From Wenzhouxiangella sp. XN201 (lineage in GTDB: Bacteria; Pseudomonadota; Gammaproteobacteria; Xanthomonadales; Wenzhouxiangellaceae), in contig NZ_JAAIVI010000017.1 of NCBI RefSeq assembly GCF_011008905.1, forward strand, positions 1,775,750-1,839,749: 64,000 bases of DNA, written 5' to 3'. Positions 27,815 through 40,220 of this stretch are shown here, piece by piece. Positions within the stretch are counted from its first letter, which is position 1. Each line of letters starts with the position of its first letter. Position numbers and translations under genes: made by a program. The notes below the pieces were generated by a model. It saw nothing but the letters and a program-made list of their open reading frames with translations. It had not been told where the DNA came from and did no database searches.

Positions 27815-28897
27815 ATGCCGTCATCCACCTCGCTGCCCCGGGTTGCCCTGCTTGCCGTGCCTGAAGCCACGGCTTCGACCCTTTACGGCATGCTCGATCT
27901 GTTCTGCTCGGCCGGCCGCGACTGGTCGATGATCGAATGCGGGCAGCCCGGACCCGGAGCCTTCGACGTTCAGGTCGTCAGTCGCAATGCACGGCCGTTT
28001 GCCGCCGCCAACGGCGTCACCATCCGACCCGACGCCGACCTTCGAAGCACCCCCAGCCCCGATATTGTCTGCATCCCCGAAGTGCTCATCGCTCCGGACG
28101 ACGAGGTGATCGAAAGCTACGGCCCCGAATGCGAGTGGCTGCTCAACAGCCACGCCGCCGGCGCGACCCTCGCTTCGGTCTGTTCCGGCGCCCTCTTGCT
28201 GGCCCAGGCCGGCCTGCTGGACAACCGCGAGGCCACGACGCACTGGGCGTACTGCGAGGCCCTGGCGCGGCGGTTTCCGAAGGTGCACGTACAACCGCAA
28301 AGCGCGCTGGTCGTAACCGGCGACGAACAGCGGCTGGTCATGGCCGGCGGCGGCACCTCCTGGCAGGATCTGGCCCTCTACCTGGTCGCCCGCTGGATGG
28401 GCATGGACGAAGCCATCAAGCTGGCCCGGATCTACCTGGTTGACTGGCATCAATCCGGTCAGTTGCCCTACGCCGTACTCACGCGCACCCGGCAGGTCAG
28501 CGACGGCGTCATCGCCCGGGTCCAGGAGTGGATCGCAATGCACTACCCCACCCCCCAGCCGGTCACCGCCATGGTCGAGCACAGCGGCTTATCGGAACGC
28601 ACCTTCAAGCGCCGTTTCCGCAAGGCCACCGGGATGACGCCCATGGCCTACGTCCATACCCTGCGACTCGAAGAGGCCAAGCAGATGCTCGAATCCGGCA
28701 ATCACTCCGTCGATGCCGTGGCGCAGGAGGTCGGTTACGAGGATGCGGCCTACTTTTCGCGACTGTTCCACCGCCAGGTCGGCCTCAGCCCCGGCCATTA
28801 CCGCCGGCGCTTCCAGGGCCTGCGGGCCGCCCTGGCGCAGCATGGCCATCTGCCCGATCCGCCCGCGGCAAACGGTAATCATCCACTGCTAAGATAG
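27815..28897 (+). CDS. GlxA-type regulator: DJ-1/PfpI domain plus AraC HTH
   Basis: The 360-residue protein has a DJ-1/PfpI-like N-terminal domain with VCSGALLLAQAGLLDNREAT, the nucleophile-elbow cysteine region. A C-terminal AraC/XylS domain (about 235-340) contains GLSERTFKRRFRKATGMTPM and VGYEDAAYFSRLFHRQVGLS. GlxA proteins regulate amino-acid or quaternary-amine metabolism in relatives. The ligand here is unknown. It likely controls the divergent methyltransferase gene and perhaps itself. Confidence 0.92.
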   Translation: MPSSTSLPRVALLAVPEATASTLYGMLDLFCSAGRDWSMIECGQPGPGAFDVQVVSRNARPFAAANGVTIRPDADLRSTPSPDIVCIPEVLIAPDDEVIESYGPECEWLLNSHAAGATLASVCSGALLLAQAGLLDNREATTHWAYCEALARRFPKVHVQPQSALVVTGDEQRLVMAGGGTSWQDLALYLVARWMGMDEAIKLARIYLVDWHQSGQLPYAVLTRTRQVSDGVIARVQEWIAMHYPTPQPVTAMVEHSGLSERTFKRRFRKATGMTPMAYVHTLRLEEAKQMLESGNHSVDAVAQEVGYEDAAYFSRLFHRQVGLSPGHYRRRFQGLRAALAQHGHLPDPPAANGNHPLLR

Positions 28898-35952: not shown

Positions 35953-36648
35953 ATGACAAAGACTGAAACGAATCGCATCTGGCGGGATGGACTCTGGGAC
36001 AACAACCCGGGGCTGGTCCAGTTGCTCGGCCTGTGCCCGCTGCTGGCGGTGTCGAACACGGCGGTCAATGGTCTCGGCCTGGGCCTGGCCACACTGCTGG
36101 TATTGGTCGTTTCGAACGGACTGGTTTCATTGTTGCGCTCGGCGTGGCGTCCCGAGATCCGCATTCCCGCCTTTGTCCTGATCATCGCCTCGACGGTCAC
36201 CGCCATCGACCTGGCCATGCAGGCCTGGCTGCATGAGCTCAGCCGCACGCTGGGCATCTTCGTGCCGCTGATCGTGACCAATTGCACCATCCTCGCTCGA
36301 GCCGAAGCCTTTGCCTCGAAGCAACCCGCTGGCGCTGCCCTGCATGACGCGCTGGCCCAGGGCACCGGTTTCGCCGCCGTGCTGATCGTACTCGGGGCCG
36401 GCCGCGAGATTGTCGGCCAGGGCACGCTGCTGGCCGGCGCCGACATGCTCTTCGGTGAAGCTGCGGCCAGCTGGACGATTCCGATGCTGCCCTTCGATAG
36501 CGGTCTCCTTCTGGCGGTGCTTCCGCCCGGAGCCTTTATCGGCCTGGGCCTGTTGGTAGCGCTGCGGCAATATCTGGTCAGTCGACCGCAGCGTGCTGGC
36601 GTGGCATCCTCGCCTGCCCCAATGCCTTCGACACCGACAGCTTCATGA
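35953..36648 (+). CDS. rsxE: Electron transport complex subunit RsxE/RnfE
   Basis: The 231-residue protein has six membrane spans. VQLLGLCPLLAVSNTAVNGL and FVPLIVTNCTILARAEAFA hold the cysteines that pair with those of RsxA around the [2Fe-2S] cluster. LGAGREIVGQGTLL is also typical. It ends four bases into nth. Confidence 0.96.
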   Translation: MTKTETNRIWRDGLWDNNPGLVQLLGLCPLLAVSNTAVNGLGLGLATLLVLVVSNGLVSLLRSAWRPEIRIPAFVLIIASTVTAIDLAMQAWLHELSRTLGIFVPLIVTNCTILARAEAFASKQPAGAALHDALAQGTGFAAVLIVLGAGREIVGQGTLLAGADMLFGEAAASWTIPMLPFDSGLLLAVLPPGAFIGLGLLVALRQYLVSRPQRAGVASSPAPMPSTPTAS

Positions 36649-37313
36649 ACAAGACCGATCGTGAGGAATTCTTTCGGCGACTTTCCGAGCTCGATCCCGA
36701 GCCGACAACCGAGTTGGCGTATGCCACACCCTTCGAGCTGCTCGTGGCCGTCATCCTCTCGGCCCAGGCCACGGATGTGGGCGTCAACAAGGCCACGCGT
36801 CGGCTGTTCCCGGTGGCCAACTCGCCCGAGGCCGTTCTCGAGCTGGGCGAGGACGGCCTGAAGGACTACATCCGGACGATCGGACTGTTCAATTCGAAAG
36901 CAAAAAACATCATCCGCACCTGCCGTGACCTGGTCGAAAAGCACGACGGCGTGGTGCCCGACAATCGCGCCGAGCTCGAAGCGCTGGCCGGCGTGGGGAG
37001 AAAGACTGCCAATGTCGTGCTCAACACCGCCTTCGGGCAGCCGACCATGGCCGTCGATACGCATATTTTCAGGGTGTCCAACCGCACCGGGCTGGCGCCC
37101 GGCAAAACACCTCTGGCGGTCGAAAAGGCCCTGCTCAAGCGGGTGCCCGAGCGCTACCTCAAGAATGCCCACCACTGGCTGATTCTGCACGGTCGCTACA
37201 CCTGCAAGGCGCGCAAGCCGCTGTGCGGGCAATGCCCGGTCTATGACCTGTGCCGCTGGCGGCAGAAGTGGCAATATCACGAGCTCACGCGAGTGGACGA
37301 TGCGGCCGGCTGA
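36645..37313 (+). CDS. nth: Endonuclease III
   Basis: The 222-residue protein has AVILSAQATDVGVNKATRRLF and the helix-hairpin-helix LAGVGRKTANVVLN with the catalytic lysine. The catalytic aspartate is in VDTHIFRVSNRTGLAPGK. The [4Fe-4S] motif is CKARKPLCGQCPVYDLC. It removes oxidised pyrimidines from DNA. Its coupling to rsxE (ATGA) is the conserved rsx-nth arrangement. Confidence 0.98.
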   Translation: MNKTDREEFFRRLSELDPEPTTELAYATPFELLVAVILSAQATDVGVNKATRRLFPVANSPEAVLELGEDGLKDYIRTIGLFNSKAKNIIRTCRDLVEKHDGVVPDNRAELEALAGVGRKTANVVLNTAFGQPTMAVDTHIFRVSNRTGLAPGKTPLAVEKALLKRVPERYLKNAHHWLILHGRYTCKARKPLCGQCPVYDLCRWRQKWQYHELTRVDDAAG

Positions 37314-37414
37314 AACACGCGACCTACGTGAATTTCCCTAGCGATTTCTTAACGCCCAGGTGCTAGAGTATTGACCGGCATCAAGTTTTGATGTCCATTA
37401 TTTTCCGCATCTTC

Positions 37415-37420
37415 GGAGGT
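37415..37420 (+). promoter_or_regulatory. Strong Shine-Dalgarno before the precursor gene
   Basis: ggaggt, with 7 bp to the ATG at 37428. It is a near-perfect ribosome binding site and decides the start of the short gene. Confidence 0.8.
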
Positions 37421-37427
37421 TTGAGTC

Positions 37428-37748
37428 ATGCCTGACAAGAAACATCTTCTTACTGCAATCAGCACCGTTGCCGCTGCCTCGTTCTCGCTCAGCGCGATGG
37501 CCACATCCAATACCACGGGTAATCCCTTCCAGGCCGAGGATCTTCCGGCCGGCTTCCAGGTCTCCGCCGACGACCACAAAGAAGGCAAGTGTGGTGAAGG
37601 CAAGTGCGGCGAAGACAAGGAAAAGGACAAGGATGAAGAGGGCAATTGCGGTGAAGGCAATTGCGGTGAAGGCAACTGTGGTGAAGACCACGACGAGGAC
37701 AAGGACGAAGAAGGCAACTGCGGCGAAGGTTCCTGCGGAGCAATCTGA
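37428..37748 (+). CDS. hvfA: HvfA-like exported cysteine-repeat RiPP precursor
   Basis: The 106-residue protein has a signal peptide (MPDKKHLLTAISTVAAASFS, cut expected near SAMA). A short spacer (27-50) leads to a highly acidic repeat core. Seven cysteines (55, 60, 74, 79, 84, 98, 103) are all in G-x-C-G with x = K, N or S, mostly EGKCG or EGNCG, spaced exactly five residues apart inside each block. The next two genes are a DUF692 oxidase and a DUF2063 protein. In HvfA-type precursors the EGKCG cysteines are converted by such enzymes to oxazolone/thioamide groups that bind copper. That role is known for relatives and inferred here. An ordinary metallothionein-like protein is the main alternative. 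Confidence 0.85.
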   Translation: MPDKKHLLTAISTVAAASFSLSAMATSNTTGNPFQAEDLPAGFQVSADDHKEGKCGEGKCGEDKEKDKDEEGNCGEGNCGEGNCGEDHDEDKDEEGNCGEGSCGAI

Positions 37749-37760
37749 TTACTGCCCGTA

Positions 37761-38624
37761 ATGCGTACCGCATCCACCTTTGATCTTTGTGGTGCCGGAC
37801 TGGGCCTTCGCCGAGGCCTGCTCGAGAAACTCCGTGAAGCCGATCTCTCCGAGGTCGGCTTCATGGAAGTGGCACCCGAAAACTGGATTGGCGTCGGCGG
37901 CCGACTCGGTCGCCGCTTCGCCGAGTTCACCGAGCGCTTTCCATTCGTCTGCCACGGCCTGTCTCTGTCGCTGGGCGCGCCCGAACCGCTCGATCGCGGC
38001 TTTCTCGAGCGCGTGCGCCGTTTTCTCGACACACACCGAATCCGCGGTTATTCCGAACATCTCAGCTACTGCTCCGAGCACGGCCACCTCTACGACCTGA
38101 TGCCCCTGCCCTTCACCGAGGAGGCCGTCGACTGGGTGGCCGGTCGTATCGGCCAGGCACAGGACATCCTCGATCGGCGAATCGCGGTCGAGAACATTTC
38201 CTACTACGCCGCACCCGGGGCGGAAATGTCCGAACTGGATTTCATCACGGCCGTGCTGGAAAAGGCCGATTGTCAGCTGCTGCTCGACGTCAACAATATC
38301 TACGTCAACAGCGTCAATCACCGCTACGACGCGCACGAATTCCTGGCCGGCCTGCCGGCCGAGCGGGTCGCCTACATTCACGTGGCCGGCCATTACAATG
38401 AAGCCGAAGACCTGATCATCGACACCCACGCTGCCCCGGTCATCGAGCCGGTCTGGCACCTGCTCGAAGCTGCCTACGAGCGCCTGGGGCCGGTACCCAC
38501 CCTGCTCGAGCGGGACTTCAATTTTCCGCCAGTCGAGGAACTCCTGACCGAAATCGGCCAGATCCGCCGGTTGCAAGCACCCTTTTTGAGCCATGTCCCG
38601 CGCGACCGACAGCAAGCCTCCTGA
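37761..38624 (+). CDS. hvfB: DUF692 multinuclear iron oxidase (MNIO), HvfB-like maturase
   Basis: The 287-residue TIM-barrel protein keeps the likely iron ligands and motifs in order: H65 (HGLSLSLG), H100 (SEHLSY), E144 (ENISYY), D176 (DVNNIYVNS), H207/H211 (YIHVAGH), D221/H223 (DTHAAPV) and E250 (ERDFNFP). MNIO enzymes use two or three iron ions and oxygen to modify cysteines or other residues of precursor peptides. Here the substrate is most likely the peptide encoded 12 bp upstream. It overlaps the following DUF2063 gene by 32 bp, suggesting obligate co-production. Confidence 0.93.
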
Positions 38625-39375
38625 ACGGCTGCTCGAGCTGCAGCGCCGGTTTGCCGGGCATATCCGCGACCCGGACGACGTCGCCGCTCCCGGCGAGCTG
38701 GAAGAGCGCCGACTGGCGATCTACCGCCGCTTGTTCTTCGGCACCCTCGACAACCTGTTCTCGAAGAATTTTCCGGTTCTTCGCGACATCATCGACGACG
38801 ATCGCTGGCGGCGGCTGATCCGCGAGTTCATGGTGGAACACCGCGCGACAACGCCGATGTTTACCGAAATCGGGCGCGAGTTCGTGCGCTTTCTCGACGA
38901 AAAGCGACCGCCCGGACTGCCGGCCTTCGCCCTGGAGTTGGCGCACTGGGAGTATCTCGAAACCTGCGTGCGCCTGGCCGAGGCCGACCCGGGCACCGTA
39001 CCGGCCGACCGCAATGGCGACCTGCTCGCCGGCACGCCAGTGCTCAATCCCACGCTGCGACTGGCCCAGTATCATTGGCCGGTGCACGAAATCGGCCCGC
39101 ATCACCAGCCCGACTCGCCGCTGGACCAGGCGATCGTACTGGCGGCGTGGCGTCGGCGCGATGACAAGCCCGGTTTCATGCGCCTCAACCAGGTCACGGC
39201 GCGCCTGATCACCCTGGTCGACGAGTCCCCTGATGCCTCAGGTCGGGCGATACTGGAGCGCATCGCCCAGGAACTGAAAGCACCGGATCCGGCCGCCGTG
39301 GTGCAGTCGGGCGCAGACATGCTCGCGCGCCTGGACGACCGTGAAATCGTGCTGGGCACACGTAAGGATCAGTAG
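38593..39375 (+). CDS. hvfC: DUF2063 protein, HvfC-like maturation partner
   Basis: The 260-residue protein has the DUF2063 N-terminal helical domain: [45 protein letters not shown] and [12 protein letters not shown]-terminal domain has [19 protein letters not shown]. In MNIO systems this protein binds the oxidase and recruits the precursor (the RRE-like role of BufC/HvfC). It was earlier called a putative DNA-binding protein. It overlaps the MNIO gene by 32 bp. It ends close to a convergent TraB/GumN gene, so the operon is three genes long. Confidence 0.9.
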
Positions 39376-40220
39376 ACCGGCTCGAGTATCCAGCCCCGCT
39401 CTCGCAGCATCGCAACCAGGCCTTCCTCGCCGGGCAAGTGCAACGCGCCAACAGCGATGATCAGCCCGCCGGACTCGAGCCAAGGCTCGGCGCGTTCGAG
39501 CATGCGCCGATTGCGCGCGGCCAGACCGGCTTCATTGAAATGCGCGATCACGGGCTCGGGAAGACCGTCCATCTGACTCTCCGCCAGCCTGGCCAGACGC
39601 TCGAGGTCGCCGTCCAGGTAGGCCGCAATCAGGCGCTCGAAGATCTCGAGTTGCCGCTCGTGATCCGACACCGCCTGGCGAATCAACGCAATCTGTTCTT
39701 CCGGTGCGAAACCGGTCAGAAAGCCGATCTGCTCATCGAAGGTTTCCAGCGCCACAACGTCCGCTCCGGCGCCCTGGGCCCGTACAGAAAGCATCAGGTC
39801 CATGAACATGCCGGTCTCGGGCGGCGGCGTTGCCAGGGTAACGGCGACAGCCCAGGGCCGCATGCGATCGACGGCAGTTTCGGTCAGTCCATAATGAGTT
39901 ACCAGCAACTCTACGACCCTGGCGTACAGGTCTTCGTCGAGCACCTCGCTCAGGCGGCCATCGCGAAACATCATGGCCTGCTGCAGGCGCTCGAGGACGG
40001 CGGCATTGGGCACCAGTTCCAGGGCCAGCCGATCGGCCTGCTGCAGCGCGTCCACCAGCGGTTCGGGCCAGTCGAGCAGGCGGGGATCCTCGCTGTGCAC
40101 CGTGCCCAGAAGCCAGTTCTGACGGCCCGCCTCGTCGGTCAGCGACCAGAAGACCTGCGCCTGCGCCGTCAGCGGCAGCAACACAATCAACGCAAACAGA
40201 ATGCGGCGGACAGCCCTCAT
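39369..40220 (-). CDS. TraB/GumN family protein
   Basis: The ATG at 40220 (MRAVRRILFALIVLLPLTAQ) gives 283 residues with a signal peptide. The family motifs WLLGTVHSEDPRLL near the start and IIAVGALHLPGEEGLVAMLRERG near the end are present, both with the Gx2H pattern of metal-binding Tiki/TraB proteins. Eukaryotic Tiki is a protease, but bacterial members are not characterised well. The stop overlaps the end of the convergent DUF2063 gene by seven bases. A longer upstream frame crosses the divergent rnt gene and is rejected. Confidence 0.88.
   Translation of the reverse strand: MRAVRRILFALIVLLPLTAQAQVFWSLTDEAGRQNWLLGTVHSEDPRLLDWPEPLVDALQQADRLALELVPNAAVLERLQQAMMFRDGRLSEVLDEDLYARVVELLVTHYGLTETAVDRMRPWAVAVTLATPPPETGMFMDLMLSVRAQGAGADVVALETFDEQIGFLTGFAPEEQIALIRQAVSDHERQLEIFERLIAAYLDGDLERLARLAESQMDGLPEPVIAHFNEAGLAARNRRMLERAEPWLESGGLIIAVGALHLPGEEGLVAMLRERGWILEPVY

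Follow-up and report, generated by a model that had tools for sequence, protein, structure and literature searches.

An hvfABC operon with lysine-poor EGxCG repeats and an FNR-like box at its predicted promoter in Wenzhouxiangella sp. XN201

Wenzhouxiangella sp. XN201 carries an hvfABC operon, a locus of a known kind that also goes by the names Buf_EGKCG/oxazolin and captophorin. We make this assignment from sequence because family models and the gene order A-B-C agree on it, in support of an earlier note on this DNA that had proposed an HvfABC-type locus. Taken as one core reading, HvfABC identity, a 5-thiooxazole product and copper buffering are probable.

The operon lies on the forward strand of the 64,000-nucleotide stretch that we analyzed (hereafter the window), between nth (endonuclease III; 36,645–37,313, forward strand; TIGR01083, 277 bits) and a convergent TraB/GumN-family gene (39,369–40,205, reverse strand; PF01963, 185 bits), both of which we place outside the system from these matches and from synteny. 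The precursor gene hvfA (37,428–37,748, forward strand; 106 residues, seven EGxCG motifs) is preceded by a GGAGG Shine-Dalgarno sequence (37,415–37,419, forward strand), of which GGAG is invariant in 10/10 regions from the host's subclade. The MNIO (DUF692) oxidase gene hvfB (37,761–38,624, forward strand; 287 residues) starts 12 bp past the hvfA stop and, by eye, lacks a good Shine-Dalgarno sequence. It overlaps hvfC (38,593–39,375, forward strand; 260 residues), encoding a partner with DUF2063 and NGO1945_C domains, by 32 bp (38,593–38,624). The three genes, the strong hvfA ribosome site and the 32-bp overlap thus stand as the earlier note had read them. The convergent TraB/GumN gene in turn shares 7 bp with hvfC (39,369–39,375).

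HvfB reached 438.1 bits against the NCBIfam NF003818 cut-off of 360 and also matched Pfam MbnB_TglH_ChrH (PF05114, 352 bits), and HvfC scored above its cut-off (NF050145, 266.1 bits against 142), with matches to PF09836 and PF22106. The precursor passed the repeat-domain model (NF050137, 53.4 bits, cut-off 19.5) and fell below the HvfA equivalog cut-off (NF050188, 46.2 against 95 bits); on its sequence we class it as HvfA-like, not HvfA proper. Its N-terminus, read by eye alone, has an n-h-c pattern ending in AMA and looks Sec-like. A search of the host genome returned a single MNIO, a single HvfC and no second EGxCG repeat precursor above the model cut-off. Among named relatives Wenzhouxiangella sediminis comes closest, with an HvfB that is 85% identical.

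That the MNIO is complete, also proposed before, is borne out beyond the NF003818 match. Aligned to PDB 3bww (E 4.4e-72), HvfB has identical residues at H65, H100, E144, N178, H207, D221, H223 and E250, the eight expected ligand positions, which in most of their roles we take to be the metal ligands. The Asn, Asp and His of site 3 are named as ligands for Haemophilus influenzae HvfB in a passage of PMC13419390, and their correspondence to the host residues is a motif match. Across 30 genus genomes, MNIO and HvfC were both found in the same 21 and both missing from the same 9. They are thus present and absent together, even though their genes lie apart in 4 of those 21, and so behave as an obligate pair; HvfX does not. 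At four loci (L114, L115, L117 and L118, of G014, G025, G026 and G027) hvfC stands behind nth with hvfA-hvfB elsewhere in the genome; in G026 another gene lies between nth and hvfC, and G025 has two MNIO genes.

The loci compared here were collected through the similarity of their HvfB or HvfC to those of the host locus, so the set is biased toward the host's relatives. Among 146 loci with an HvfB match, 6 had no upstream Cys-containing ORF, and in 12 the best upstream ORF held fewer than three CG (L054, L058, L059, L065, L074, L080, L082, L085, L094, L096, L102 and L104); some of these twelve are contig ends and others may have different precursors. Exact precursor repeats were dropped, leaving 113 precursor rows that include two genes twice with different assumed starts (L018/L134 and L010/L142). 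Of 111 rows, the 98 that have 120 nt or more ahead of the precursor supply the upstream regions; some of the assumed starts are wrong.

The absence of hvfX, which the earlier note had counted as unusual, holds at the locus, where the convergent TraB/GumN gene stands next to hvfC instead; it does not hold genome-wide. An unlinked HvfX (NF050144, 121.2 bits, cut-off 80; also a Pfam DoxX match) is encoded together with a response regulator at L178:4825-6167 (reverse strand; contig 17, 350.8–352.2 kb), ~1.46 Mb from hvfABC. The response regulator is FixJ-like, with Response_reg and GerE domains (Pfam), and behind the pair lies an IS481-type transposase, with nuoLMN-like genes nearby by eye. The same reading had reported no nearby sigma gene, and this stands: the seven sigma-70 region 2 genes of the genome all lie outside the window and none is beside hvfX. 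Five other genus genomes (L123, L127–L130) have an operon of hvfA-B-C-X followed by a response regulator gene, which follows hvfX in these five sisters and at two further loci. In G025, a sigma factor gene (L204:1733-2251, reverse strand; Sigma70_r2, r4_2) comes after an hvfA-B-X-response regulator locus.

G011 and G017 share synteny with the host at the hvfX-response regulator site. In G027 this site carries hvfA-B-X-response regulator, and hvfC stands alone between nth and traB. A tree of the neighbor proteins and HvfC nested G027 between species that have the host's arrangement, with a warning of long branches meeting at L136. The split may have come about through movement of hvfAB between the two sites, or through loss of different genes from two copies. 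A search of the genus genomes other than G027–G029 gave no match to an HvfX of the host type in G003 and G019, each given as 99% complete. Across the wider set, a DoxX-like gene follows hvfC in 48 of 93 full-flank rows, the other 45/93 giving no match to our DoxX profile, and it is lacking in all 8 full-flank rows of the host's subclade. This profile was built from hydrophobic ORFs chosen by our own rule; on checking, 2/2 proteins sent to Pfam were DoxX and 1/1 sent to NCBIfam was HvfX.

The control of the operon also appears to differ from that of its relatives. Upstream of hvfA in 27 of 98 relatives (e.g. L045, L105 and L091) we found an ECF-type promoter, GAAACT-N16-GTC, where shuffled sequences led us to expect 0.27. 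Its spacer was always 16 bases in a scan that allowed 14–18, and the third base after GTC was A in 26/27. By contrast, this element is absent from all ten subclade regions, which share TGCTAG, a short run to T, and then TTGAY-N4-ATCAA. In the window these correspond to an extended −10-like element, TGC-TAGAGT (37,361–37,369, forward strand; TGCTAG invariant in 10/10 aligned subclade regions), and an FNR/ANR-like box, TTGAC-CGGC-ATCAA (37,371–37,384, forward strand), centered on the predicted +1. The −10-like element is missing from the output of a sigma-70 pattern scan that depends on a −35, and the extended −10 start site that we predict for hvfA is a guess. Counted from the start codon, the box lies at −56 to −59; it is exact in 9/10 subclade regions and has one mismatch in the tenth (L120). 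The other 88 upstream regions gave one match, at −141. Mean column identity across the subclade upstream region is 69%, and as the ten sequences form one clade, conservation of the box may reflect a single inheritance. Genome-wide recurrence of TTTAAC-...-TGCTAG was tried as further support and set aside as uninformative, because the pattern missed its own site (CTTAAC).

FNR cysteines hold an O2-sensing cluster, and genes for Usp, HemN and ccoN are classic FNR targets. In the host genome the box recurs at 16 distinct sites (9 forward and 10 reverse matches), compared with 1 forward and 1 reverse match for a reversed-box control. ORFs beside 9 of the 16 encode, by Pfam, Usp, HemN, COX1 (ccoN-like), a CRP-type regulator, HSP20, citrate synthase, cytochrome c, Hcp and one protein without a Pfam match. 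Some of the 16 lie inside ORFs (e.g. L172 and L167). One such box in the window (TTGACTGGCATCAA, 28,440–28,453) is probably non-functional because it is inside an ORF. An FNR-type protein encoded in the genome has the C-x2-C-x5-C pattern plus one more Cys, as in FNR, and the same triad occurs in proteins of 5/5 relatives checked, 4 of which carry the box; these five proteins are ~38% identical to the host's. Orthologs of the host protein at 70% or above occur only in G003, G011, G017 and G027 (70–84%), and the FNR-type proteins of box-carrying G008, G009, G019 and G029 are ~38% identical to it. With three Crp-family matches in the host genome, another CRP/FNR paralog could be what binds the box, or the box could be inactive.

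An FNR box over a transcription start represses. We predict oxygen-gated expression of this O2-requiring pathway, with FNR repression as the mode that we infer. Our proposal for the subclade, which we put forward tentatively and at less than even odds, is that an ECF-type promoter has been replaced by a housekeeping-type promoter with an FNR box on its start and a structured leader, which would couple captophorin production to O2, with hvfX and the response regulator elsewhere. A serious competitor, itself short of an even chance, is that an ECF sigma factor or the hvfX-adjacent response regulator controls the operon and that the box is a relic. ECF control of hvf/buf operons is described in passages of PMC7907618 (RpoE2 in H. 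influenzae) and PMC3511200 (a sigma F site, GTAACC-N16-CGAA, in Caulobacter), and this competitor also draws on the frequency of ECF-type promoters among the relatives, the seven sigma-70 region 2 genes of the host, and the response regulator that follows hvfX in the five sisters and two further loci, with a sigma factor gene after it in G025. It fits poorly with the loss of GAAACT-N16-GTC from all ten subclade regions, and with a box that stays exact in nine of them while the surrounding sequence averages 69% identity.

We consider it rather unlikely that FNR instead activates the operon from a class II site, with transcription starting near −9. Activation by FNR normally works from a box at about −41.5, and the host cytochrome c gene has its box ~42 nt before the listed start; however, at hvfA a start 41 nt past the box center would hit the conserved Shine-Dalgarno sequence. 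The distance from box center to listed start is ~70–75 nt for the COX1, HemN and Usp genes and 50 nt for hvfA, which also argues against activation. With the −10 as we read it, the box is centered on the predicted start.

Just after that start, a leader hairpin is predicted at 37,377–37,395 (forward strand) from pairing and covariation in the ten subclade sequences. Pairing there extends to 91.7% of cells, with changes on both sides in 8 cells and a covariation score of 0.474; 0/500 shuffles reached the pairing, two-sided-change or covariation values, and sliding the partner by 1–3 bases lowered pairing to 27–48%. The numbers of double-change pairs (2) and pair types (5) were not above shuffles (355 and 499 of 500), and the double changes essentially separate two subgroups. 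Taken on its own, the window sequence folds only slightly better than its shuffles (z −1.57, with 17/200 shuffles equally good). A pattern scan lists the hairpin as terminator-like (3 found, 1.8 expected), and Rfam gave no match at E up to 10. With low confidence, we take the hairpin for a 5'-end mRNA stabilizer; it is possibly an attenuator instead.

The precursor itself has seven cysteines, every one of them in an EGxCG motif, with x in the order K, K, N, N, N, N, S (EGKCG twice, EGNCG four times and EGSCG once). The repeats follow the Sec-like N-terminus and a linker and are separated by Asp/Glu/Lys-rich spacers. Among 391 ORFs of at least 60 residues in the window, the next best has two GxCG motifs, and the seven G-x-C-G cysteines of the earlier note are confirmed. 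Lysine before each modified cysteine, the mark of the 'Lys-Cys' group, is found at only 2/7 sites. The EGNCG and EGSCG variants had been regarded as odd, a view that the relatives do not support: 19/113 precursor rows have no lysine before cysteine at all (18 genes, because L018 and L134 are one), and lysine occupies fewer than half of the sites in 32/113, of which 26/32 come from the host locus's family. Lysine-poor repeats are thus common in that family. Over 876 x-C-G sites in the 113 rows, x is Lys in 598, Ser in 150, Ala in 71, Asn in 15, Thr in 13 and another residue in 29. A quick HvfB tree (111 rows, built without a mixture model) requires at least 7 changes for the lysine-poor state and 6 for the complete lack of lysine, counts that cannot separate gain from loss.

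Passages of PMC13097082 on FonBC report that A, R and T are tolerated at position x and that E and F are poor, double variants with E or F at position 3 being severely impaired; these passages name no variant with Asn or Ser at position 3. The same source gives R15, R16, D249 and F250 of FonB as substrate-selecting residues. Their equivalents in HvfB are unchanged in 111/111 rows for R15 and R16 and in 108/108 non-gap rows for D249 and F250. Because lysine-free precursors sit beside these unchanged residues, the sequences suggest that x of EGxCG is not read by them, in agreement with the published tolerance for A, R and T. An unlikely alternative is that only the two EGKCG cysteines become 5-thiooxazoles and the Asn- and Ser-preceded ones stay thiols, making the peptide a mixed metallothionein/captophorin. 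The five of seven sites without lysine and the impaired E and F variants of FonBC (PMC13097082), by which x does matter, lend it some weight; the tolerance for A, R and T, and the 19/113 lysine-free rows that precede an HvfB with unchanged Arg/Arg/Asp/Phe, count against it.

Two explanations for the loss of lysine were rejected. Salt adaptation found no support in HvfB net charge, which did not differ between lysine-poor and lysine-rich rows (Mann-Whitney p 0.27) with no trend across 5 independent pairs; the last 60 precursor residues are acidic in lysine-poor rows (−0.24 versus +0.02 per residue). The strongest candidates for co-evolving HvfB residues, such as a change from SDDG to SEHG around residue 100, seem to follow phylogeny, because outside the clade lysine-poor rows retain SD or TD, and lysine-rich L136 and L057 have SEH. 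Elsewhere in the set, an order-level relative (L017, G051) has Glu before Cys (GECG) in 5/10 repeats, a residue handled poorly by the characterized FonBC (PMC13097082, in part). The precursors of L010, L016, L021 and L143 carry EF-hand-like DxDxDG sequences between EGKCG repeats, by eye, and resemble the published EF-hand chimera type.

The product of this class was first described as oxazolone/thioamide, the chemistry that the earlier note had assigned here, and has been revised to 5-thiooxazole in passages of PMC13097082 and PMC13419390 (a preprint). The published properties, shown in relatives and cited here from parts of those sources, are 5-thiooxazole formation, copper binding (seen for captophorin by native MS; PMC13097082), a need for HvfC and use of O2. 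By analogy, the host peptide probably has a copper role, and its Asn- and Ser-preceded cysteines may be modified too. A close published parallel in PMC13097082, as far as its main text goes, is fonABC of Fontimonas thermophila (fontiphorin, captophorin class), an already characterized set without DoxX that shares with the host a locally minimal ABC layout, seven sites (modified in fonABC) and an MNIO with a DUF2063 partner. It differs in its motif, described as Lys-Cys, whereas 5/7 host sites have Asn or Ser; the word "promoter" is absent from that main text. In passages of PMC13419390 and PMC7907618, the H. influenzae hvf cluster (oxazolin) shares HvfA/B/C, and an HvfX that the host genome also has, but keeps hvfX in the operon, ~1.46 Mb away in the host; it is also RpoE2-dependent (PMC7907618), unlike the host locus, where no ECF-type promoter was found. 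The Buf_EGKCG/oxazolin family shares repeated EGxCG and, in various combinations, the core genes precursor-MNIO-DUF2063-DoxX, and has a Sec signal, which the host N-terminus resembles by eye (PMC12452194), the passages of that source making no mention of a response regulator-containing split operon, lysine-poor repeats or an FNR-type box. The Caulobacter bufferin operons under sigma F (PMC3511200, in part) likewise pair an MNIO with DUF2063 and have the 16-base ECF spacer of many relatives of the host locus, with a precursor (DUF2282) and a site sequence (GTAACC-N16-CGAA) unlike those of the host. That the locus is itself a bufferin (Buf1) or methanobactin is highly improbable and contradicted by family scores below cut-offs (BufB NF050167, 269.7 against 310; MbnB TIGR04159, 37.2 against 325) and by a precursor that does not match DUF2282, the shared MNIO superfamily and the size of the BufB score notwithstanding.

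In the mechanism that we propose, HvfA would be made in the cytoplasm, and HvfC would bind it and enable the iron centre of HvfB. With O2, HvfB would convert the cysteines of all seven EGxCG motifs, whether preceded by Lys, Asn or Ser, to 5-thiooxazoles, with a loss of ~4 H each, and the modified peptide would be exported by Sec and buffer Cu(I) in the periplasm. The genes that sister species keep together as hvfA-B-C-X-response regulator are divided here between two sites, hvfABC at nth-traB and hvfX with the FixJ-like regulator elsewhere; either arrangement may be the older. Transcription would most likely begin from the extended −10 promoter at a start overlapping the FNR-type box, so that in the absence of O2, a condition under which HvfB could not function, FNR would silence the operon.

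The operon first noticed in this DNA is real, complete and of a known kind, and the reasons given for calling it unusual mostly dissolve. A narrow search of main texts turned up no description of lineage-wide lysine-poor repeats, of the split between hvfABC and hvfX-response regulator, or of an FNR-type box replacing an ECF promoter, and the strings 'EGSCG', 'EGACG' and 'EGNCG' did not occur among the literature matches listed; as the search was narrow, any novelty in print is tentative. MNIO-PME1 clusters number more than 24,000 (PMC13097082, in part), and for them the control and the cellular role of each part are little known. Natural lysine-free precursors beside unchanged selectivity residues indicate that the lysine of EGKCG is likely not read by those residues. 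Genomes in which hvfC, hvfAB and hvfX-response regulator lie apart, or in which the search gave no hvfX, can serve as natural experiments to tell which parts the system requires, and the conserved FNR-type box ties O2 to copper buffering in a way that can be tested.
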